Shown here piece after piece: positions 1 to 45,331 of a stretch of DNA of 64,000 nt. The position numbers and the translations under genes are program-made. Numbering within the stretch: position 1 is the first letter of the stretch; the number at the start of each line of letters is the position of its first letter. Under the pieces are notes generated by a model. The model made no database searches and had not been told where the DNA came from. It saw nothing but the letters and a program-made list of their open reading frames with translations. The DNA comes from Phycisphaerales bacterium (GTDB lineage Bacteria > Planctomycetota > Phycisphaerae > Phycisphaerales > UBA5793), in assembly GCA_020852515.1 (NCBI GenBank), contig JADZAS010000004.1:1-64000 (forward strand), read 5' to 3'.

Positions 1-232
1 CATCAGTCCAGACGAACACTTTGATGACACCCTCGCTTGTTAGTGTCTCCCCGACGACGACGCCGGCGTTGTTGATCGACCGCGGCGTCGTTCCCCGGCC
101 TCCGATATCCCCGATGTCCACGATCGCATAGCGCGCGGCCTCCTGGCCGCGCGCTACGCCGCAGTGTGCGAATGCTCCGAGAATGACGGAGATGAACAGA
201 GCTTGTCGTCTCGTTGACACATGATGCATCAT
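1..232 (-). CDS. HAF-repeat secreted protein, 5' end only (cut by window edge)
   Basis: The first 77 codons of a minus-strand gene that continues beyond the left edge. Two in-frame ATGs (232 and 229) follow an AGAAAGGA ribosome site about 8 nt upstream. The product starts with a basic segment and a hydrophobic signal peptide (QALFISVILGAFA), then enters the N-terminal motif of HAF proteins: YAIVDIGDIGG, a SINNAGVVVGE repeat and a VFVWTD end. HAF repeats are thought to form a beta-propeller outside the cytoplasm; their ligand is unknown. Four other HAF-type genes lie in the window (8335, 14118, 16940, 43961). Whether it carries their C-terminal tail cannot be seen. Confidence 0.75.
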   Translation of the reverse strand, partial: MMHHVSTRRQALFISVILGAFAHCGVARGQEAARYAIVDIGDIGGRGTTPRSINNAGVVVGETLTSEGVIKVFVWTD

Positions 233-261
233 GTGCAAGTCCTTTCTGATCAGGCGGCAAA

Positions 262-405
262 TCACGGCCGCGGCGCGCAGTTACAGTCTGTCGTCGGCGC
301 AATCGGGCGCGGCACGAACGAGCCGATCATGTACGCGCCGTTGTCCTCCTCAATGTCGCCGCGCAGATCGGTGAACAGGTTCGCGTCATCGATCTTCGAA
401 CGCTG
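262..405 (-). pseudogene. Possible C-terminal remnant of a decayed gene
   Basis: A 47-codon open stretch bounded upstream by a stop and without a start in a sensible place. The translated tail reads like real protein: acidic, with TDLRGDIEEDNGAYMIGS, then a Pro/Cys-rich end (TTDCNCAPRP) and a TGA. Cysteine-containing termini also end the 916-aa protein at 14118-16868 and the remnant at 9780. This could be the 3' piece of a lost secreted protein. Chance is not excluded. Confidence 0.25.
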
Positions 406-719: not shown

Positions 720-1580
720 TCAAGGCAGTTGCGAGACATTTGAGGTGTTGCACGATCCCGCTTCGACGAGTTGCAGGAAATCGTTGCAGATGCCGGTGCC
801 GATCTGCCCGTTTGCCGTGCCCGAGCCATTTCCGGTTCCGATGATGTTGACCAGCTGCACGCCGCCCTGCAGGCCAAGCATCGTGCCCTGGCACGGTCCG
901 TTAGGGATGGTGGTGCTGCCCTGATTGGCCCCGTAGACGATGCCCTGCTGCACGCTGGGTGTCGCGCCGCTCCAGCGGAGCGTGACGGTGCCGGGGCACT
1001 GGCCGGTGGTGCTCAGGCGATATCCGCCGACCGCCTCGAGGCGTACGTCGTCCATCAAGGTGATGTTGCCGTTTTCGCCGTTCGTTTCATCGATCTCCAC
1101 GCGAGCGATGTCCGCGCTGGTTTCGTAACCCAGAAACACCGCATCCGACTGCGCCGGCATGGTCCGCGTCACGAATCCGAGGAGATTGTTCGAGGCGTCG
1201 TACAGGTTCATCGTCCACGTCGTCACCGGAGTGGTCGAAAGCAGACAGCCGAAGCGGCGGATCCCGGCCGGCGGCCTCATGATGATCAGCGAGTCGCCCC
1301 ACTGGTCGTTGAACCCGTTGCCCTGCGAAGAGCCGGGAATGTTGTCGAAGTACGATCCCCAGTTGATGCTCCCGTTGAAGCCAGCGCCGCCGCTGCCGCC
1401 GCCGCTTTCCGAAAACTCCACCCCCTCGTACACGAACGGCGCGTTCTGCCCGCCAAAGCCCGGCGTGAAGGTGATCACCTGCTCGTTGCCGGAGAAATCG
1501 CCGATGTTGATCGGCTGACCCAGTGCCGCCGCTCCCGCGACGCCTACCACCCCAGCCAGCACCATAATTTTCAAAGACAT
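720..1580 (-). CDS. Secreted protein with cysteine-rich C-terminal tail domain
   Basis: 286 aa from the ATG at 1580, which follows AGAAGGAGAG. Residues 1-22 are a signal peptide (MSLKIMVLAGVVGVAGAAALG). The middle (about 25-185) is Gly/Asn-rich and beta-strand-like, with motifs such as GDSLIIMRPPAG and ARVEIDE. I do not recognise a named family, though it resembles exported jelly-roll domains. The last 100 residues form a tail shared with the genes at 33679 and 34806: CPGTVT, WSGATPSVQQGIVYG, IPNGPCQGT, GIC, then GSCNTSN near the terminus. The four cysteine positions suggest two disulfides, which fits an extracytoplasmic location. The tail looks like a common sorting or attachment module. Function unknown. 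Confidence 0.8.
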   Translation of the reverse strand: MSLKIMVLAGVVGVAGAAALGQPINIGDFSGNEQVITFTPGFGGQNAPFVYEGVEFSESGGGSGGAGFNGSINWGSYFDNIPGSSQGNGFNDQWGDSLIIMRPPAGIRRFGCLLSTTPVTTWTMNLYDASNNLLGFVTRTMPAQSDAVFLGYETSADIARVEIDETNGENGNITLMDDVRLEAVGGYRLSTTGQCPGTVTLRWSGATPSVQQGIVYGANQGSTTIPNGPCQGTMLGLQGGVQLVNIIGTGNGSGTANGQIGTGICNDFLQLVEAGSCNTSNVSQLP

Positions 1581-8334: not shown

Positions 8335-9708
8335 TCACTCAAACTCATGCACGACGAGCTGGCTGATGGCGCACTCGTTCTGGACGACGGCCTGGAAGAG
8401 GATGGTCTGGCCGCGCGCGATGAGGGGGACGGGGCGGGTGATGGTGGCGACGCCATTCGCGTCGGCGATGGCGCTGCCGATGATCGTCGGCTGATCGAGT
8501 TGCAGCGCGTTCTGCTGCAGGTCGCAGCCGGGGATGCGCGTGCCGCCGCCGTTGCGGGAGTAGAGGAACGTGACACGAGCGCCGGGCGTCACGTTGCTGA
8601 CGGTGATGGTGTTGGCTGTACCTGCGGTCCCGGGCGAGGGAGCGGCGAGGTCCATCGATGGATTCACGGGTGTCAGAAGCAGCGCGAATCGATCAATTGT
8701 GCCCCGAATGTAGGCGGTCACGCTGATCTGTCCCGCATCATTGATATGGCCACGATCGAATCGCCAGTCTTCACGGGTGCGCGGCGGCGTCAGGTCTTTG
8801 AGCAGGCGCATCGGTTGACTGGATTCGCGGATAAACATTTCGCGCGTGCCAAGGTAGCCGATGGCGCCAATGACTTGTCCTGCATTGTTGATATCCTGGC
8901 CCCAACTCGCAGGACCGTACTCAGGTACGTGAAGGTCAAAGATCTGTCCATCGATCCAGACCACGGCGTGGAGATTCCCGTTGGCTGCGTTGGACGAACC
9001 CACGATCTGGCCGAGATCATTGATGGCGTAGGCCACACTACTGCCTTGGGAAAGCGACCCGAGGTCGACGGGAACCTCATCTATCCAGAGCATGGCACGC
9101 TGCATCCCGTCGAGATTCAGCCCCTTGCCCACAACTCCACCGTCCTCTCCAATTCCCCAGACATCGGTCGCATTGCGGTCCGGCCATGGATCATCGAGTT
9201 CTCGCATGATGCCCTGCTCCCAAAGGAAGCCAACACTTGCGAGGTTGCCGAACTCAAACTCGGAATTCCCGACGACTTGCGACCGGTTGTTGATGCCGAC
9301 TGCACCGCTCGACTCTCCACCGAGCGTTCCGAGGTCGATCATCTGGCCATTGCGCCAGAGGAACGCATGGCCGACGAAGATGCTCCCGCCCAGCTCGAAT
9401 CCCGACGAACCTACGATCTCGCCGAGGTCGTTGATGTCGCCAGCGCTCGATAAATCCCCTCCCAGGGTGCCGAGATCAATGACGCCGCCCTCTCGCGGCC
9501 AGAGTACAGCGCGCGGCCACCAGATGCTCTCCGTCGGAGCGCTGCCGACCACGTCGCCAAATGCGTTTAATGCTCCGGCCGCATCAGATTTGAGCGATTC
9601 ATTCTGCGAGGGCAATCTCAGCAGCGCATACGGGTAGTCCTGCGCAGAGGCGCCGGCGACGATCGAGATCGAAAGAACAATCGAAATTACGGAGCGCATT
9701 GAAAACAT
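8335..9708 (-). CDS. HAF-repeat secreted protein with conserved C-terminal tail
   Basis: 457 aa from the ATG at 9708, which follows GGGAGG. A signal peptide (to about residue 23, ending GASAQ) is followed by five or six HAF repeats of about 45-60 residues. These show the family words GGVIDLGTLGG, DINDLGEIVGSS, HAFLWRNGQMIDLGTLGG and AINDLGQIVGSS. Such repeats are predicted to build a beta-propeller. The last 111 residues are a tail shared almost unchanged with the genes at 16940 and 43961 (TPGARVTFLYS, RIPGCDLQQNALQL, QNECAISQLVVHEF), with one cysteine pair. Function unknown; probably surface-exposed. Its 3' end lies in the inverted repeat. Confidence 0.88.
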   Translation of the reverse strand: MFSMRSVISIVLSISIVAGASAQDYPYALLRLPSQNESLKSDAAGALNAFGDVVGSAPTESIWWPRAVLWPREGGVIDLGTLGGDLSSAGDINDLGEIVGSSGFELGGSIFVGHAFLWRNGQMIDLGTLGGESSGAVGINNRSQVVGNSEFEFGNLASVGFLWEQGIMRELDDPWPDRNATDVWGIGEDGGVVGKGLNLDGMQRAMLWIDEVPVDLGSLSQGSSVAYAINDLGQIVGSSNAANGNLHAVVWIDGQIFDLHVPEYGPASWGQDINNAGQVIGAIGYLGTREMFIRESSQPMRLLKDLTPPRTREDWRFDRGHINDAGQISVTAYIRGTIDRFALLLTPVNPSMDLAAPSPGTAGTANTITVSNVTPGARVTFLYSRNGGGTRIPGCDLQQNALQLDQPTIIGSAIADANGVATITRPVPLIARGQTILFQAVVQNECAISQLVVHEFE

Positions 9709-9779
9709 GTGAGCCTCCCGCGAGATCTCTTGAGAAAGCGTCTGGAGCGGCTCTCGCCGCTCCAGACGTCGAGAATCAC

Positions 9780-9851
9780 TCATTGCCCGCCGCAGCCGGG
9801 GCAGACTTCACTCTCATCGCACCCGAACCCATGGGGTGCGGAGTTGGTAGG
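9780..9851 (-). pseudogene. Remnant of a cysteine-tailed protein C-terminus
   Basis: The minus-strand frame reads APHGFGCDESEVCPGCGGQ then stop. It strongly resembles the end of the 916-aa protein at 14118-16868 (TPHSCACDSEYTCPDCP), with PH, CD-E, CP and C in the same order. An in-frame stop lies 23 codons upstream and there is no start codon. I read this as the last piece of a deleted relative, not a gene. Confidence 0.45.
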
Positions 9852-16939: not shown

Positions 16940-18301
16940 ATGAGAGCCGGACACGCATCACTGATCACGATTGTTGCAACTTTCGTGCAGATCGCCGGCA
17001 CCGCCGCCCAGGACCATCGCTACGCGGTATTCGAGTTGCCGGGATTGTCGCAGAACTACCAATGGGCCGGAGGCGTCGATATAAATTCAGCAGGCCATGC
17101 CGTCGGATTCACGGCACTTGCTTCGTTTCACATTCGTGCTGTTGTCTGGCCGAGTCGGGGCGGGGTGATCGATCTAGGCACACTCGGCGGGGAGAGCGCC
17201 GCAGCGACTGGCATCAATGATTCGGATGAAATCTGTGGTTGGGCGGTCTTCGATCCCGGTGGAAGCTTCTTTGATCGACATGCATTTCTGTGGCGCGACG
17301 GTGATATGACCGATCTGGGAACACTCGGCGGTGAGACCAGCTGGGCGAACGCACTCAATGGCAGCGCACAGGTCGTGGGCGAGTCGGAGTACGCTGGCGG
17401 CACAGGAGCGAAGGCGTTTGTCTGGGAGAACGGTGAGATGCGCGTTCTGCCCGCGCCCCATCCAGACTGGGATGGTCGGGCCGCTTTCGACATCAACGAT
17501 CTCGGCGAGATTGTGGGGTACGGATACGGCGTCGATGCTGTCCTGCATGCGCTGCTCTGGCGCAATGGAAACGTCACCGACCTTGGATCGCTGAGCAATC
17601 TTGAGAGCAAGGCGTACGGCATCAACGAGGGCGGTGTCATTGTCGGCTATTCGCGGATGCCGGACAACTACGTGCATGCGGTGCGCTGGACAAACGGCCA
17701 AATCGAAGATGTTCATACAGCCAATGTCGGACCGAATAGTATCGCGAGGGGGATCAACAACGTCGGTCAGATTGTCGGCGATGCATATGTCAGCACGCGC
17801 GCGTTCATCCTCAATCCCGGGGAGCAGATGATGCTGCTCGATGATCTCGTGCCGCCACAGCTCCGTCTTGCCTGGACAATGCAGCGAACCACACACATCA
17901 ACGACGCCGGTCAGATTCCTGTAACTGCGGAATACGATGGCGACACGTGGGCTTTGCTGCTCACGCCTGTCAACCCGACGATGACGCTCCAGAGCCCCGT
18001 ACCGGGCAGCGCCGGAACAACTAACCGGCTGCGCGCGACGGGTGCCACCCCCGGTGCCCGCGTCTACTTCTGCTACTCCCGCCACGGCGGGGGGACTCGC
18101 ATCCCCGGCTGCGACCTGCAGCAGAACGCGCTGCAACTCGATCAGCCGACCATCATCGGTAGCGCCATTGCCGATGCCAACGGCGTGGCGTCAATCACCC
18201 GGGCCGTCCCCCTCATCGCCCGCGGCCAGACCATTCTCTTCCAGGCCGTCGTCCAGAACGAGTGCGCGATCAGTCAGTTGGTGGTGCATGAGTTTGAGTG
18301 A
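16940..18301 (+). CDS. HAF-repeat secreted protein with conserved C-terminal tail
   Basis: 453 aa, start after AGGTGA. A signal peptide (to about residue 24) precedes HAF repeats: VIDLGTLGG, RHAFLWRDGDMTDLGTLGG, DINDLGEIVGYG and GINNVGQIVGDA. The 111-residue tail (IPGCDLQQNALQL, QNECAISQLVVHEFE) is nearly identical to that of the gene at 8335. The last 100 nt differ at about nine positions, most of them silent. The stop is followed at once by the right inverted-repeat copy. A gene-conversion or duplication partner of the 8335 gene. Function unknown. Confidence 0.88.
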   Translation: MRAGHASLITIVATFVQIAGTAAQDHRYAVFELPGLSQNYQWAGGVDINSAGHAVGFTALASFHIRAVVWPSRGGVIDLGTLGGESAAATGINDSDEICGWAVFDPGGSFFDRHAFLWRDGDMTDLGTLGGETSWANALNGSAQVVGESEYAGGTGAKAFVWENGEMRVLPAPHPDWDGRAAFDINDLGEIVGYGYGVDAVLHALLWRNGNVTDLGSLSNLESKAYGINEGGVIVGYSRMPDNYVHAVRWTNGQIEDVHTANVGPNSIARGINNVGQIVGDAYVSTRAFILNPGEQMMLLDDLVPPQLRLAWTMQRTTHINDAGQIPVTAEYDGDTWALLLTPVNPTMTLQSPVPGSAGTTNRLRATGATPGARVYFCYSRHGGGTRIPGCDLQQNALQLDQPTIIGSAIADANGVASITRAVPLIARGQTILFQAVVQNECAISQLVVHEFE

Positions 18302-32774: not shown

Positions 32775-33416
32775 TCAGTTCGACCGGCGACGCCGCGCAC
32801 CGACGGCGACGGCGCCGATTCCCAGCAGGGCCGCCGAAGCCGGCGCCGGCACGGGGACCTTGTCCGAGCCGCCGTTGGCAAAGCCGCGGAACCGGACAAC
32901 GAAATTGAATTCGTTGGGTCCGTCGATGAAACTGGACGCGGTGAGCGTGCTGGCGAAGTCGGAGGTCACCTCGAACTGAAACGCACCGCTCGAACCGACG
33001 CCGATGCCCGTGTTCGGGCTGCCGCCGCCTTCGAACTGGCCGCCAATGCCTGCGCCGGCGTTGAAGTAGCCGAACGGCATGGCGTTGACGCCTGGGCCAG
33101 GGATGTTCACGATGGAAGGATGCGTAGAGAACAGCAGCGCCGCGGTATCAGCCTGGCTGTACCGGGGCGCGCCGATGTTGAACACGAAACCAGTGATGAA
33201 GCCGCCCAGCAGGGGATCGCTCGTGTTGGTCAACTGGATGTCGAGCAGGCCGGTGTCGCCGGACTGGAACTCGTACTGGATGAGGCCTGAGAAGTTCCCG
33301 AATCCCTCAGAGCTGTTGCTCGGATCCCCCTGGATGTTGATGATGTCGGCCGCCGCCAGCGAACTGATGGAACCGATCACGCCGGCTGCGAGAGCCGCGC
33401 ACACTTGTGAACGCAT
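32775..33416 (-). CDS. PEP-CTERM-type exported protein
   Basis: 213 aa from the ATG at 33416. Signal peptide at about 1-22 (AALAAGVIGSISSLAAA). A beta-rich middle, with IQYEFQSGDTGLLDIQLTN and GFITGFVFNIGAPRYS, follows. The C-terminus has the sorting-signal layout: VPVPAPASAALLGIG (the VPxPA motif and hydrophobic stretch), then an ARRRR basic end. Such tails are processed by exosortase-type systems in the inner membrane. No exosortase gene is in the window. It is monocistronic with its own hairpin terminator. Confidence 0.87.
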   Translation of the reverse strand: MRSQVCAALAAGVIGSISSLAAADIINIQGDPSNSSEGFGNFSGLIQYEFQSGDTGLLDIQLTNTSDPLLGGFITGFVFNIGAPRYSQADTAALLFSTHPSIVNIPGPGVNAMPFGYFNAGAGIGGQFEGGGSPNTGIGVGSSGAFQFEVTSDFASTLTASSFIDGPNEFNFVVRFRGFANGGSDKVPVPAPASAALLGIGAVAVGARRRRSN

Positions 33417-33620
33417 GAATCGAACCCTCTTTCTCACTCGTGAATGGAACGGTCCTGTGTGAAGTCCGGCGGGCTGTGCATCGCCACGCCGGAACAGCGA
33501 CCATCAAGTATGAGATACGAATGAGCAGATGTAAAGCCGCGGGCCCCGCACTGCGGTGCGTTTCGGCTCAATTCCGGAGCCGATAATGCGCGGCGCGCAT
33601 GTGGCGACGCCTGAAAAGGC

Positions 33621-33678: not shown

Positions 33679-34548
33679 TCAGATCTGGTCCGGATTACTC
33701 GTGTTGCACGAGCCGGCTTCGATCAACTGGAGGTAGTGGCCGCAGGCGCCGCTGCCGGCGTTGCCGTTGACCGAGCCGCTGCCGCCACCGGTTCCGAGGG
33801 TGCGGATGAGGCGCACATTGCCCTGGACGCCCAGCGAGGTGCCGGTGCAAGGTCCGCCGGGGATGACGGTCGTGCCGAGGTTGTCGCCGTAGACGATGCC
33901 CTGCTGGACGCTGGGCGTGGCGCCGCTCCAGGCGACGGTCACGGTGCCGGGGCACGGGCCGGTGACGTCGAGCGTGTAACCGCCGCCGCCGGCGTTGCCG
34001 TGCTGCATGTCGTCGATGGCGAAGGCGTTGAGGGCGCCTTCGTTGTGCGTGTCGCGCGTGGCGGCGTCCTGGTAGGAGCCGATGCGCAATTCGTCGAAGT
34101 TGCCCGAGAAGCCGATGAGAACACCGGCCGAGAGGTCGGCGTCAAAGTCCTGCACCGGGTTGCCGTTGAGGTAGGCCGTGGCCCACATGTAGACGCTGCA
34201 ACCGGAGAAGCCGTGCGAAGGCAACATCTCGAGATGCGAGAAGTCGCTGCCGTCGATCTTGGTGATGGTGATCCGCTCGGTGACGCCGCCGTTGGGGTAG
34301 TAGATGTTCGGATTGTTGAATCCGCAGGGCTGGAAGACGAACGCGAAGTCATTGACGTCAACGGTGAGGCCCTGGTCCATGTAGTTCACCAGCGTCTGGC
34401 CGTTCATGGTGATGTCGCTGAAATGGAGCAGCCCATCCGAGTTGACGATCTGGCTCGTGCCGGTGTAGAAAGTCACCTGCCCATTGGCGGCGCCGGCGGT
34501 GAGCAGTGCGCAGGCGGCAAAGGCCCCGATCGCAAGAGTCGATTTCAT
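33679..34548 (-). CDS. Secreted protein with cysteine-rich C-terminal tail domain
   Basis: 289 aa from the ATG at 34548 after AAGGAG. Signal peptide about 1-22 (FAACALLTAGAANGQ). Residues 25-188 form a strand-rich exported domain (GLLHFSDITMNGQTLVNYM, FSGCSVYMWATAYLNG, FSGNFDELRIGSY). Residues 191-289 are the tail shared with the genes at 720 and 34806: CPGTVTVAWSGATPSVQQGI, IPGGPCTGTSLG, ACGHYLQL, GSCNTSN. The middle domain differs from both relatives, so the tail is the shared module. Function unknown; probably surface-attached. Confidence 0.82.
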   Translation of the reverse strand: MKSTLAIGAFAACALLTAGAANGQVTFYTGTSQIVNSDGLLHFSDITMNGQTLVNYMDQGLTVDVNDFAFVFQPCGFNNPNIYYPNGGVTERITITKIDGSDFSHLEMLPSHGFSGCSVYMWATAYLNGNPVQDFDADLSAGVLIGFSGNFDELRIGSYQDAATRDTHNEGALNAFAIDDMQHGNAGGGGYTLDVTGPCPGTVTVAWSGATPSVQQGIVYGDNLGTTVIPGGPCTGTSLGVQGNVRLIRTLGTGGGSGSVNGNAGSGACGHYLQLIEAGSCNTSNPDQI

Positions 34549-34747
34549 TTCTTTCTCCTTCAAAGACGTTTGATGGACGCCGCCGGTCGGCCACGTTTGG
34601 AGCCGCATTTCGCGGTCCCGCCGAACGGCGACACTGATGTTTATACCGCAAAGGCTCAAGAGTTGCAAGGGGCGGCTTGCAGGAAATGACGACTTTGCGG
34701 TGCTGCGAGCCCGGAATTCCTCGATGCCGGGCCATGAGAAAGCGGCC

Positions 34748-34775
34748 GCGGCCCCGCTCGGGTGAGCGGAGCCGC
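34748..34775 (-). terminator. Hairpin terminator after the 34806 gene
   Basis: A 12-bp stem with one mismatch and a GGGT loop (core GGCCCCGCTC / GAGCGGAGCC), 30 nt past the stop. A third example of a strong hairpin closing a monocistronic exported-protein gene in this stretch. Confidence 0.65.
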
Positions 34776-34805
34776 GCGCCAAGGTGAATCAGCACTCGTC
34801 GAGCG

Positions 34806-35657
34806 TTACGGGATCTGGTCCACGTTGCTCGTGTCGCACGAGCCCGCCTCGACCAGTTGGAGGTAGCGTCCGCAGGCTGCGGTGCCGGCAGCGCCGTTGA
34901 CCGAGCCGTTGCCGTTGGCGCCCGAGCTGACCGTGCGGATGAGTTGCACGCCGTTCTGGACTCCCAGTTCCGTTCCGGCGCAGGGGCCGCCGGGGATGAT
35001 CGTCGAACCCTGGTTCTGACCGAAGACGATGGCCAGTTGCGTGTTGGGCGTGGCGTTGTTCCACGCGACGGTGACGGTGCCCGGGCAGGCGCCGGTGACG
35101 CTGAGCGAGAGGCTCGGCGGGCCGGCGATGACTTCGATGTTGTCCCAGGCCGTGTTGCCTTCGATCTGGCTGCCGCCGTTGCTGGTCGAATCCATCACGA
35201 TGCGCGAGATGCCGTTGTTGCTCGTGGCCGTGTAGCGGAAGCCGGCGCACACGTTGCTGGTGCGGGTGACCGACGGCACGTCGAGGACGATGTTGCCGCT
35301 CATGTCATAGATAGTGAGGCGTTGATCGACGTACGCGGACAGATCAAAGGCGAAGGAGCTGATGCTGGCGCCAAAGGACGGGTCGAAGGTGATGGTGCTG
35401 GTCGGGCCGCCGTTGCCCCCGCCGCAGGTCTGCGTGTCGGTGATCCACAGGCCGCAGGGGTTGTTGCCGCGATAGCTTTCATCGCAGTTGCCCGAGGCGA
35501 CGTAGTAGTTGCCGGCGTTGGTGTTCTGGTAGAACCAGCGGGTGGTCCAGTCGCCGAACGGGTCGTCAAAGTTTTCGTTGTAGGTCTGAGCCAGTGCCGA
35601 ATTCGCCAGTGCGGCGACGCAGCAGGCTGCCGATGCCAGAAGTGCGAGTTTGCGCAT
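34806..35657 (-). CDS. Secreted protein with cysteine-rich C-terminal tail domain
   Basis: 283 aa, start after AAGGAG. Signal peptide about 1-23. The exported domain (about 25-180) has FGDWTTRWFYQNTN, CGLWITDTQTCGGGNGG, then a strand-rich part ending GISRIVMDSTSNGGSQ. This looks like an extracellular jelly-roll. The last 100 residues are the shared tail: CPGTVTVAWNNATPN, IPGGPCAGTELG, ACGRYLQL, GSCDTSN. It is the second of two tandem tail-domain genes (34806 and 33679), each with its own terminator. Function unknown. Confidence 0.82.
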   Translation of the reverse strand: MRKLALLASAACCVAALANSALAQTYNENFDDPFGDWTTRWFYQNTNAGNYYVASGNCDESYRGNNPCGLWITDTQTCGGGNGGPTSTITFDPSFGASISSFAFDLSAYVDQRLTIYDMSGNIVLDVPSVTRTSNVCAGFRYTATSNNGISRIVMDSTSNGGSQIEGNTAWDNIEVIAGPPSLSLSVTGACPGTVTVAWNNATPNTQLAIVFGQNQGSTIIPGGPCAGTELGVQNGVQLIRTVSSGANGNGSVNGAAGTAACGRYLQLVEAGSCDTSNVDQIP

Positions 35658-43960: not shown

Positions 43961-45331
43961 CTACTCGAACTGATGCACCACCAACTGACTGATCGCGCAC
44001 TCTTGCTGGACCACGGCCTGGAAGAGGATGGACCTGTTCTGCGCGATCAATGGGACGGTTCGGGTGATGGTGGCGGTCCCGTTGCCGTCGGCGATGGCAG
44101 TGCCGATGAGCGTCGGACTCTCAAGTTGGAGGGCGTTCTGCTGGATGGTGCAGCCCGGGATGACGGCGCCGCCGCCGTGGATGGAGTAGTAGAAGCCGAC
44201 GGTCGCGCCGGGCGTGACGCCGGTGATGCGCAGAGTGTTGCTCACACCGGCGATGCCAGGTGAGGGCGCTTCGAGCGTGAACGTCCAGTTGACGGGGGTG
44301 AGGAGGAAGGCGTGGCCAACGCCAAAGCCGCTGTCGGCGCCGCGCTTGCCGTGCCCGACCATTTGCGCTGAGTCGTTGAGGTCATCGACGGTTTCGATTC
44401 TTCGCCAGAGCGACTGGGGAGGAAGAAGATCCTGCACTTCGGTGTAGGGGGCCTGAGCACTGGGCCAGAAGACGTAGATGTTGTTACCGCCGGGGCTGCG
44501 CTGCACATGGCCGACGATGTGGCCAGCGTTATTGACATGAAAGGGCTCGATGTTGTATCGATCATTCGGCCGCAGACGGAGCGTCTGCGGGATGCCGTTG
44601 TTCCAGAGAACCGCCTTCCGTTCAAAGTCGGCGGACCCGACGATCTGTCCTTGGTCGTTCATCCCTTGCGCGTTAGTGGTTTCGCCGTCGGCCCACTCTA
44701 ATTCCTCCATGTCGCCATTCCGCCACAGAAATGCTCTGCTCACGTCGCCGCTTGATAGACCGACAATCTCGCCGACTTCGTTGATATCGTTCGCAGTTGA
44801 GCGATCATGCCCCGGCAACGGCAGCACGCCGAGACTGATCATCTGCCCGTCTTTCCACAAGATGGCTCGCCGGAGCTCATTGACCAACGGATCGTTAGCG
44901 TCGCCGGCCACTTCTCCGGCGTCGTTGATCGCCCACGCCTTTGAATAATGGGTTTGCCACGTGTCGAGATCTCTTACGCGGCCCTGAGCGTCCCAGAGCG
45001 TCGCGGTCACCAAGCGGCCGTTGGTAAGGTACGTCTCGCCGGCGACTTCGTCGAGGTCGTTGATCGCCCGGCCGAGAGCGTCGCGGCCCTCTGCCAGCAG
45101 CGGCAATTCCGTCATTGCGCCGTCCCGGTAGATGTACGCGCGGTGGGTGGCATTGTTCGAGAGATAGGCGCCTCCCGTAACATGTCCGACCGAATTGATG
45201 CCACGTGCGCTGGTGAATTCCCCTCCCAACCCCGGAATCGTCACGATGGCGAATCGCGGCGGGTTCGAGTCAGGTGACGTCTGCACGCAGAGCGCTGCGC
45301 CGAATGCCGCTGTCAAGATTGAATGAAGCAT
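43961..45331 (-). CDS. HAF-repeat secreted protein with conserved C-terminal tail
   Basis: 456 aa, ATG after GGAGG. Signal peptide to about residue 18. HAF repeats include AINDLDEVAGETYLTNGR, AINDAGEVAGDAND, INEVGEIVGLSSGDVSRAFL and MNDQGQIVGSADFERKAVLW. The tail (last about 110 residues) has GVTPGATVGFYYSIHGGG, IPGCTIQQNALQL and QQECAISQLVVHQFE, closely matching those at 8335 and 16940. Unlike those, its 3' flank does not carry the long repeat, so tail and repeat are separable. Function unknown. Confidence 0.88.
   Translation of the reverse strand: MLHSILTAAFGAALCVQTSPDSNPPRFAIVTIPGLGGEFTSARGINSVGHVTGGAYLSNNATHRAYIYRDGAMTELPLLAEGRDALGRAINDLDEVAGETYLTNGRLVTATLWDAQGRVRDLDTWQTHYSKAWAINDAGEVAGDANDPLVNELRRAILWKDGQMISLGVLPLPGHDRSTANDINEVGEIVGLSSGDVSRAFLWRNGDMEELEWADGETTNAQGMNDQGQIVGSADFERKAVLWNNGIPQTLRLRPNDRYNIEPFHVNNAGHIVGHVQRSPGGNNIYVFWPSAQAPYTEVQDLLPPQSLWRRIETVDDLNDSAQMVGHGKRGADSGFGVGHAFLLTPVNWTFTLEAPSPGIAGVSNTLRITGVTPGATVGFYYSIHGGGAVIPGCTIQQNALQLESPTLIGTAIADGNGTATITRTVPLIAQNRSILFQAVVQQECAISQLVVHQFE

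Follow-up and report, generated by a model that had tools for sequence, protein, structure and literature searches.

The C-terminal tail described here, a domain of about 100 residues, is carried by about 200 exported proteins of a Phycisphaerales bacterium. Sister families have known anchors at this extreme C-terminal place, and the tail is therefore likely to be a surface-protein address label or anchor not described before. We hold with moderate confidence that the tail is a folded, lineage-specific C-terminal sorting or attachment domain of exported proteins, present in this family and in some other Planctomycetota. How many copies there are, where in the protein they lie, how diverse the passengers are, which fold is predicted, and that the slot is swapped were all established by computation. 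A literature search found no paper on this tail.

Results

Tail-bearing proteins in the window and copy number in the genome

In the window, which is the whole stretch of 64,000 nucleotides analyzed here, the original prediction had described three otherwise different exported proteins, encoded by ORFs ending at 720, 33679, and 34806, as sharing their last 100 residues. All three ORFs were real, and the alignment bore out the description: the last approximately 100 residues were 60–66% identical, and the N-terminal parts were dissimilar. The motifs it had listed were also recovered, with four Cys, CPGTVT, ATP, IP.GPC.GT, LQL, and SC.TSN invariant in the three tails. The first protein (720..1580, minus strand; signal peptide MSLKIMVLAGVVGVAGAAALGQ) has a passenger with relatives at loci L005 and L027, and its tail, of the CPGT subfamily with four Cys, lies at 723..1028 (minus strand; profile E 1.4e-55, with alignment). 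The second protein (33679..34548, minus strand; signal peptide MKSTLAIGAFAACALLTAGAANGQ) has an unrelated passenger and a four-Cys tail of the same subfamily at 33682..33984 (minus strand; profile E 2.9e-55). The third protein (34806..35657, minus strand; signal peptide MRKLALLASAACCVAALANSALAQ) has a passenger of 150 aa that is also found inside L027 (67% identity), followed by a tail at 34809..35117 (minus strand) identified by a profile match and predicted by AlphaFold to be a beta-sandwich (pLDDT 92). The listed ORFs 720-1772 and 33679-34782 were over-extended at the start; the signal peptide of the 720 protein begins near MSLKIMV (about 1580), and that of the 33679 protein begins near MKSTLAIG (about 34548).

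Three divergent copies in the window had been overlooked, all found by profile searches. Two of them belong to exported proteins with scored HAF repeats: one encoded at 8335..9783 (minus strand) with a two-Cys tail at 8338-8652, and one encoded at 16940..18301 (plus strand) with a tail at 17981-18298 that was also modeled by AlphaFold (pLDDT 90). The third, at 43964-44275, ends an exported protein (43961..45331, minus strand) whose build by eye resembles that of the two HAF-repeat proteins. The three tails form part of a divergent subfamily. The start of a further exported protein with HAF-like repeats was seen at 2-265 (minus strand); its C-terminus is out of sight because the contig start cuts the gene (window base 1 is contig base 1).

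A profile built from the three original tails matched 127 places in the source genome (G000, Phycisphaerales, 4.72 Mb), most of them with E < 1e-10, which excludes chance resemblance of the three. A broader profile of 132 rows matched at least 150 places, and about 64 further places were added by one built on the divergent subfamily, which is poor in cysteine. The genome therefore holds roughly 210 tail copies.

The tail is the last element of the protein in the source genome

The tail was the last element before the stop codon in all 194 distinct complete ORFs examined in the source genome (fetched loci and window). The profile match ended 0–8 residues from the stop in 176 ORFs and 13–21 residues from it in 18, in which the last strand was present and merely unaligned. 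Several residues were conserved at fixed distances from the stop, namely C at -10, S at -7, N at -6, V at -5, and an aliphatic residue or F at -2. Exactly one tail per protein was observed in 193 of the 194; the exception, L245 (G000:C16:445883-446473), was the sole protein found in the genome with two tails, arranged in tandem at the C-terminus. N-terminal or internal tails, the observation on which the original prediction was to fall, were thus absent from the source genome. Beyond it, the picture was mixed: among 47 confident tail ORFs from other families of the phylum (one weak partial row was left out of the count), the tail was terminal in 44 and internal in three. These three, L158 (G401) and L221 and L222 (both G115), continue for 138 to at least 200 residues after the tail.

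The main rival reading takes the tail for an accessory domain of the ordinary FN3/Ig type, with a part in ligand binding, adhesion, or matrix assembly, which would have spread through C-terminal shuffling; its terminal position would then be accidental, and no sorting machine would be involved. We regard this reading as possible but unlikely. The three internal tails in other genomes are in its favor. However, FN3-like accessory domains are usually internal and multi-copy, unlike the single, always-last tail of 193 of the 194 ORFs.

Passengers are exported and diverse

A signal peptide was recognized by a strict rule in 101 of the 123 complete tail ORFs, compared with 2.4% of shuffles. Passengers 100 aa or longer, of which there were 116, formed 53 unrelated clusters. 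Pfam and NCBIfam labels among them comprised beta-propellers (SBBP, FG-GAP, Kelch), HAF repeats/DUF3466, DUF7948, proteases (S8, M14, M28, and trypsin-like), beta-helices, CHRD, Ig domains, and the choice-of-anchor domains B, J, Q, and R. One protein of 599 aa, L027 (G000:C2:102736-106047), consists of three successive passengers joined by short linkers, with a single tail at the end, and each of these passengers is also found by itself on some other tail protein of this genome (67–69% identity), including the 34806 protein of the window. The presence of three passengers and yet one terminal tail argues against an accessory domain.

On the other side, about 17 proteins consisted of a signal peptide and a tail with virtually no passenger, and they often formed tandem clusters, which suggests that the domain may have a job of its own, as an accessory domain would. 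Such clusters of two or three tandem passenger-less genes were seen at L064, L085, L084, L120, and L123; the neighbors of L064 and L085 were read and had no obvious partner in common. A pure signal does not account for the tail-only proteins, and these, together with the tandem pair of L245 and the internal copies, count against a sorting or attachment domain.

Of 172 pairs of proteins with related passengers, 145 showed a higher similarity in the tail than in the passenger (means of 49% and 40%, respectively), and tails were up to 88% identical between unrelated passengers. We take this only as supporting evidence, because the pairs are non-independent and neighbors may exchange tails by conversion; the higher conservation of the tail could alternatively come from a general structural constraint or from gene conversion among neighboring genes.

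The tail takes the slot of known anchors

Within the order, tails were detected in all six sampled genomes of the source organism's own family (f1) and in none of 95 genomes of the other families (E <= 0.001). In the sample of the phylum, 39 of 392 genomes had tails; family f62 was rich in them, and the others had 1–6 matches, with counts cut off at 12. Named contigs with tails were those of UBA5793 (Phycisphaerales) and of the planctomycete MAGs KLAP200 and PLA5.

Were the tail a module of the anchor type, tail-free lineages would be expected to have other anchors on the same passenger. This expectation was tested with the HAF-repeat proteins, which occur across the order. All six own-family loci ended in a tail. 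Of the 18 complete HAF-repeat ORFs from sister families, six had a C-terminal GC-type dockerin scored by NF041540, two had a dockerin-like repeat by eye, and the other ten had a C-terminal proline motif, a hydrophobic stretch, and arginines, judged PEP-CTERM-like by eye; a few of these ten also scored with PEP-CTERM models, with weak E-values. The C-termini of the HAF-repeat proteins are thus swapped among tail, dockerin, and PEP-CTERM-like ends, which indicates that the tail occupies the anchor slot. That the same passenger bears known anchors in the identical slot elsewhere is a further point against an accessory domain. The HAF-repeat proteins ending in a GC-type dockerin, or in a similar repeat finishing in CP, included L174, L179, L184, L186, L188, and others (family f2 and some f3). 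The largest number of HAF-repeat matches in any sampled genome, at least 94, was found in a sister genus (G005).

The source genome had nine PEP-CTERM and two GC-type dockerin matches, neither at a tail, and most genomes of families f5 and f6 had 20–107 PEP-CTERM matches. We propose that the tail would have replaced PEP-CTERM and the GC-type dockerin as the main anchor-slot module of its lineage. Genomes of f2 and f3 had mostly no tails and few PEP-CTERM matches; the order therefore has at least three solutions, and replacement of PEP-CTERM by the tail is only part of the picture, because f2 and f3 are mostly without either in number.

A co-occurring processing protein, which the original prediction had suggested looking for, was not found, and neither was a partner, a translocon, or a protease. 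Exosortase, considered as a candidate partner, occurred in each of the 41 genomes tested from the order, whether tail-bearing or tail-free, and hence does not track the tail. A PEP-CTERM protein at 32775-33437 of the window (minus strand) adjoins the two tail proteins; PEP-CTERM models matched this neighbor and matched neither the three originally described tail proteins nor any of the 132 tails, and the genome had two exosortase matches.

Predicted fold and relation to known families

AlphaFold, run with a 21-row alignment, modeled the tail of the 34806 protein as a beta-sandwich with eight strands listed (pLDDT 92), and the divergent-subfamily tail gave a similar fold (pLDDT 90). The proposed structure prediction thus returned a confident Ig/FN3-like beta-sandwich. 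The PDB fold neighbors of the 34806 tail were of the Ig/FN3 type, the best being neocarzinostatin (1nco; Z 9.9, rmsd 2.4 over 85 residues), and those of the divergent tail were the C-terminal domain of Nir2 (Z 9.6) and neocarzinostatin (Z 9.0); scores of this size are modest and unspecific, no relative stands out, and the likeness in predicted fold is silent on function. In the predicted structure, the tail has the Greek-key beta-sandwich of the FN3/Ig families (Z up to 9.9). A generic FN3/Ig sandwich nearest to neocarzinostatin, FN3, and Ig domains is also what an accessory domain would show, but the tail differs from these domains in sequence, with no significant match: FN3/Ig Pfam models did not match over the tail in the three originally described proteins at up to E 5, and the best hit of a PDB sequence search with the tail was a monobody at E 0.22.

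The four conserved Cys, which the original prediction took to suggest disulfides, are not universal. All four were present in 104 of 132 tails, two in 18, three in five, and none in five, and Cys co-occurred in the pairs C46-C94 (127/127) and C11-C82 (phi 0.89; numbering of the 34806 tail), which predicts the disulfides C46-C94 and C11-C82. Cys that co-occur almost without fail and would form one or two disulfides, on a domain attached to every sort of passenger, could also suit an intramolecular stabilizer or cap that protects exported proteins outside the cell or aids their folding; we consider such a role improbable, since it leaves unexplained the tail-only proteins, the strict terminal position, and the exchange with PEP-CTERM and dockerin.

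No known enzyme domain was matched by the tail in Pfam, NCBIfam, PDB sequence, or fold searches; such a match had been named in advance as evidence against the original prediction. The three originally described tail proteins had no Pfam match at up to E 5 and no NCBIfam model, and the 132 tails had no type IX secretion system (T9SS), PEP-CTERM, or GC-type dockerin model from NCBIfam. APH, FlhE, and other scattered labels, which appeared at E of about 0.0005–0.7 on one or two of the 132 tails, were rejected as noise.

TIGR04183, the model of the T9SS C-terminal domain (CTD), gave no match and no candidate in the source genome, although the same search was positive in 22 of 294 genomes of the phylum and in two controls. 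The CTD-like matches in planctomycetes were scattered over these 22 genomes (G116, G279, G171, and others), some with E below 1e-8. No SprA match was obtained across 41 genomes from the order, in a search that was equally silent in the control genomes, and no T9SS CTD structure was among the 50 fold matches listed. We do not class the tail as a T9SS CTD because TIGR04183 is silent here and yet positive elsewhere. A true type IX CTD too divergent for the model, served by a diverged T9SS working in this family, would account for the Sec signal peptide, the C-terminal Ig-like sandwich, the large and diverse cargo set, and the few small CTD-only proteins, but is highly improbable given the TIGR04183 result, the lack of a SprA match (shared with the controls), and the absence from the tail ends of the KxxxK end of published CTDs (PMC5445135).

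Discussion

The original prediction that the tail is a sorting, secretion, or anchoring signal is supported in part by our results. In its favor are the terminal position in every complete ORF of the source genome, the slot swap with PEP-CTERM-like and dockerin ends, and the choice-of-anchor domains among the passengers; against it stand the failure to find a processing protein and the tail-only proteins, which fit poorly. The main cautions are these tail-only proteins, about 17 in number, and the internal tails of other families (3/47).

The nearest model for the tail is the T9SS CTD, which it probably resembles in its way of working. The CTD (TIGR04183, Por_Secre_tail, Bacteroidota) is an Ig-like sandwich with its signal in the last strands (PMC4804311, PMC5445135), and the system includes a CTD protein of 112 residues, Fjoh_0547 (cited in PMC7712824). 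In both cases, a Sec signal peptide is combined with an Ig-like sandwich, of 70–100 aa in the CTD, at the opposite extreme end of the protein (PMC4804311, PMC5445135), cargos are many and unrelated, and small members without cargo occur (PMC4804311, PMC5445135, PMC7712824). The tail had these two features in the form of signal peptides in 101 of 123 ORFs and a predicted sandwich that was terminal in 194 of 194. It differs from the CTD in lacking a TIGR04183 match and the KxxxK end, in having conserved disulfides, in belonging to another phylum, and in having no known translocon. PEP-CTERM (TIGR02595; exosortase, TIGR02602) likewise sits at the C-terminus of many kinds of exported protein, HAF-repeat proteins among them, but it is a short motif with a membrane helix and a basic end, whereas the tail is soluble and folded and has no membrane helix. 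The GC-type dockerin (NF041540) resembles the tail as a folded, anchor-type C-terminal domain in the same slot of sister-family HAF-repeat proteins; it is, however, a short, acidic, EF-hand-like repeat unrelated to the tail in sequence.

For the tail as a sorting or attachment domain, we propose the following pathway. The protein would leave the cytoplasm by Sec export through its N-terminal signal peptide, as the sequence suggests, and the tail would fold in the periplasm into the predicted Ig/FN3-like beta-sandwich, with one or two disulfides holding it together. The last strands at the very C-terminus may then be recognized by a common envelope partner, which would take the protein through the outer membrane, keep it on the cell surface, or do both. 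We infer recognition, the partner, and the choice between secretion and retention, and sequence cannot separate a secretion signal from surface retention. More tentatively, and at less than even confidence, we suggest that Planctomycetota of this family have an undescribed outer-membrane secretion-and-anchoring pathway that reads the folded, disulfide-bonded C-terminal sandwich on about 200 exported proteins and that arose by convergence as a counterpart to type IX secretion.

The distribution of PEP-CTERM earlier led to EpsH as its partner (PMC1569441). The presence of the tail in its own family and in 0 of 95 sampled genomes of the order's other families likewise gives a sharp phylogenetic profile for a partner hunt. 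How planctomycetes export proteins to the surface and retain them there is poorly understood. The tail would also supply a function label for a large set of exported proteins whose C-termini fit no family model, and it would show that a single order uses three unrelated modules to fill one anchor slot on the same passengers.
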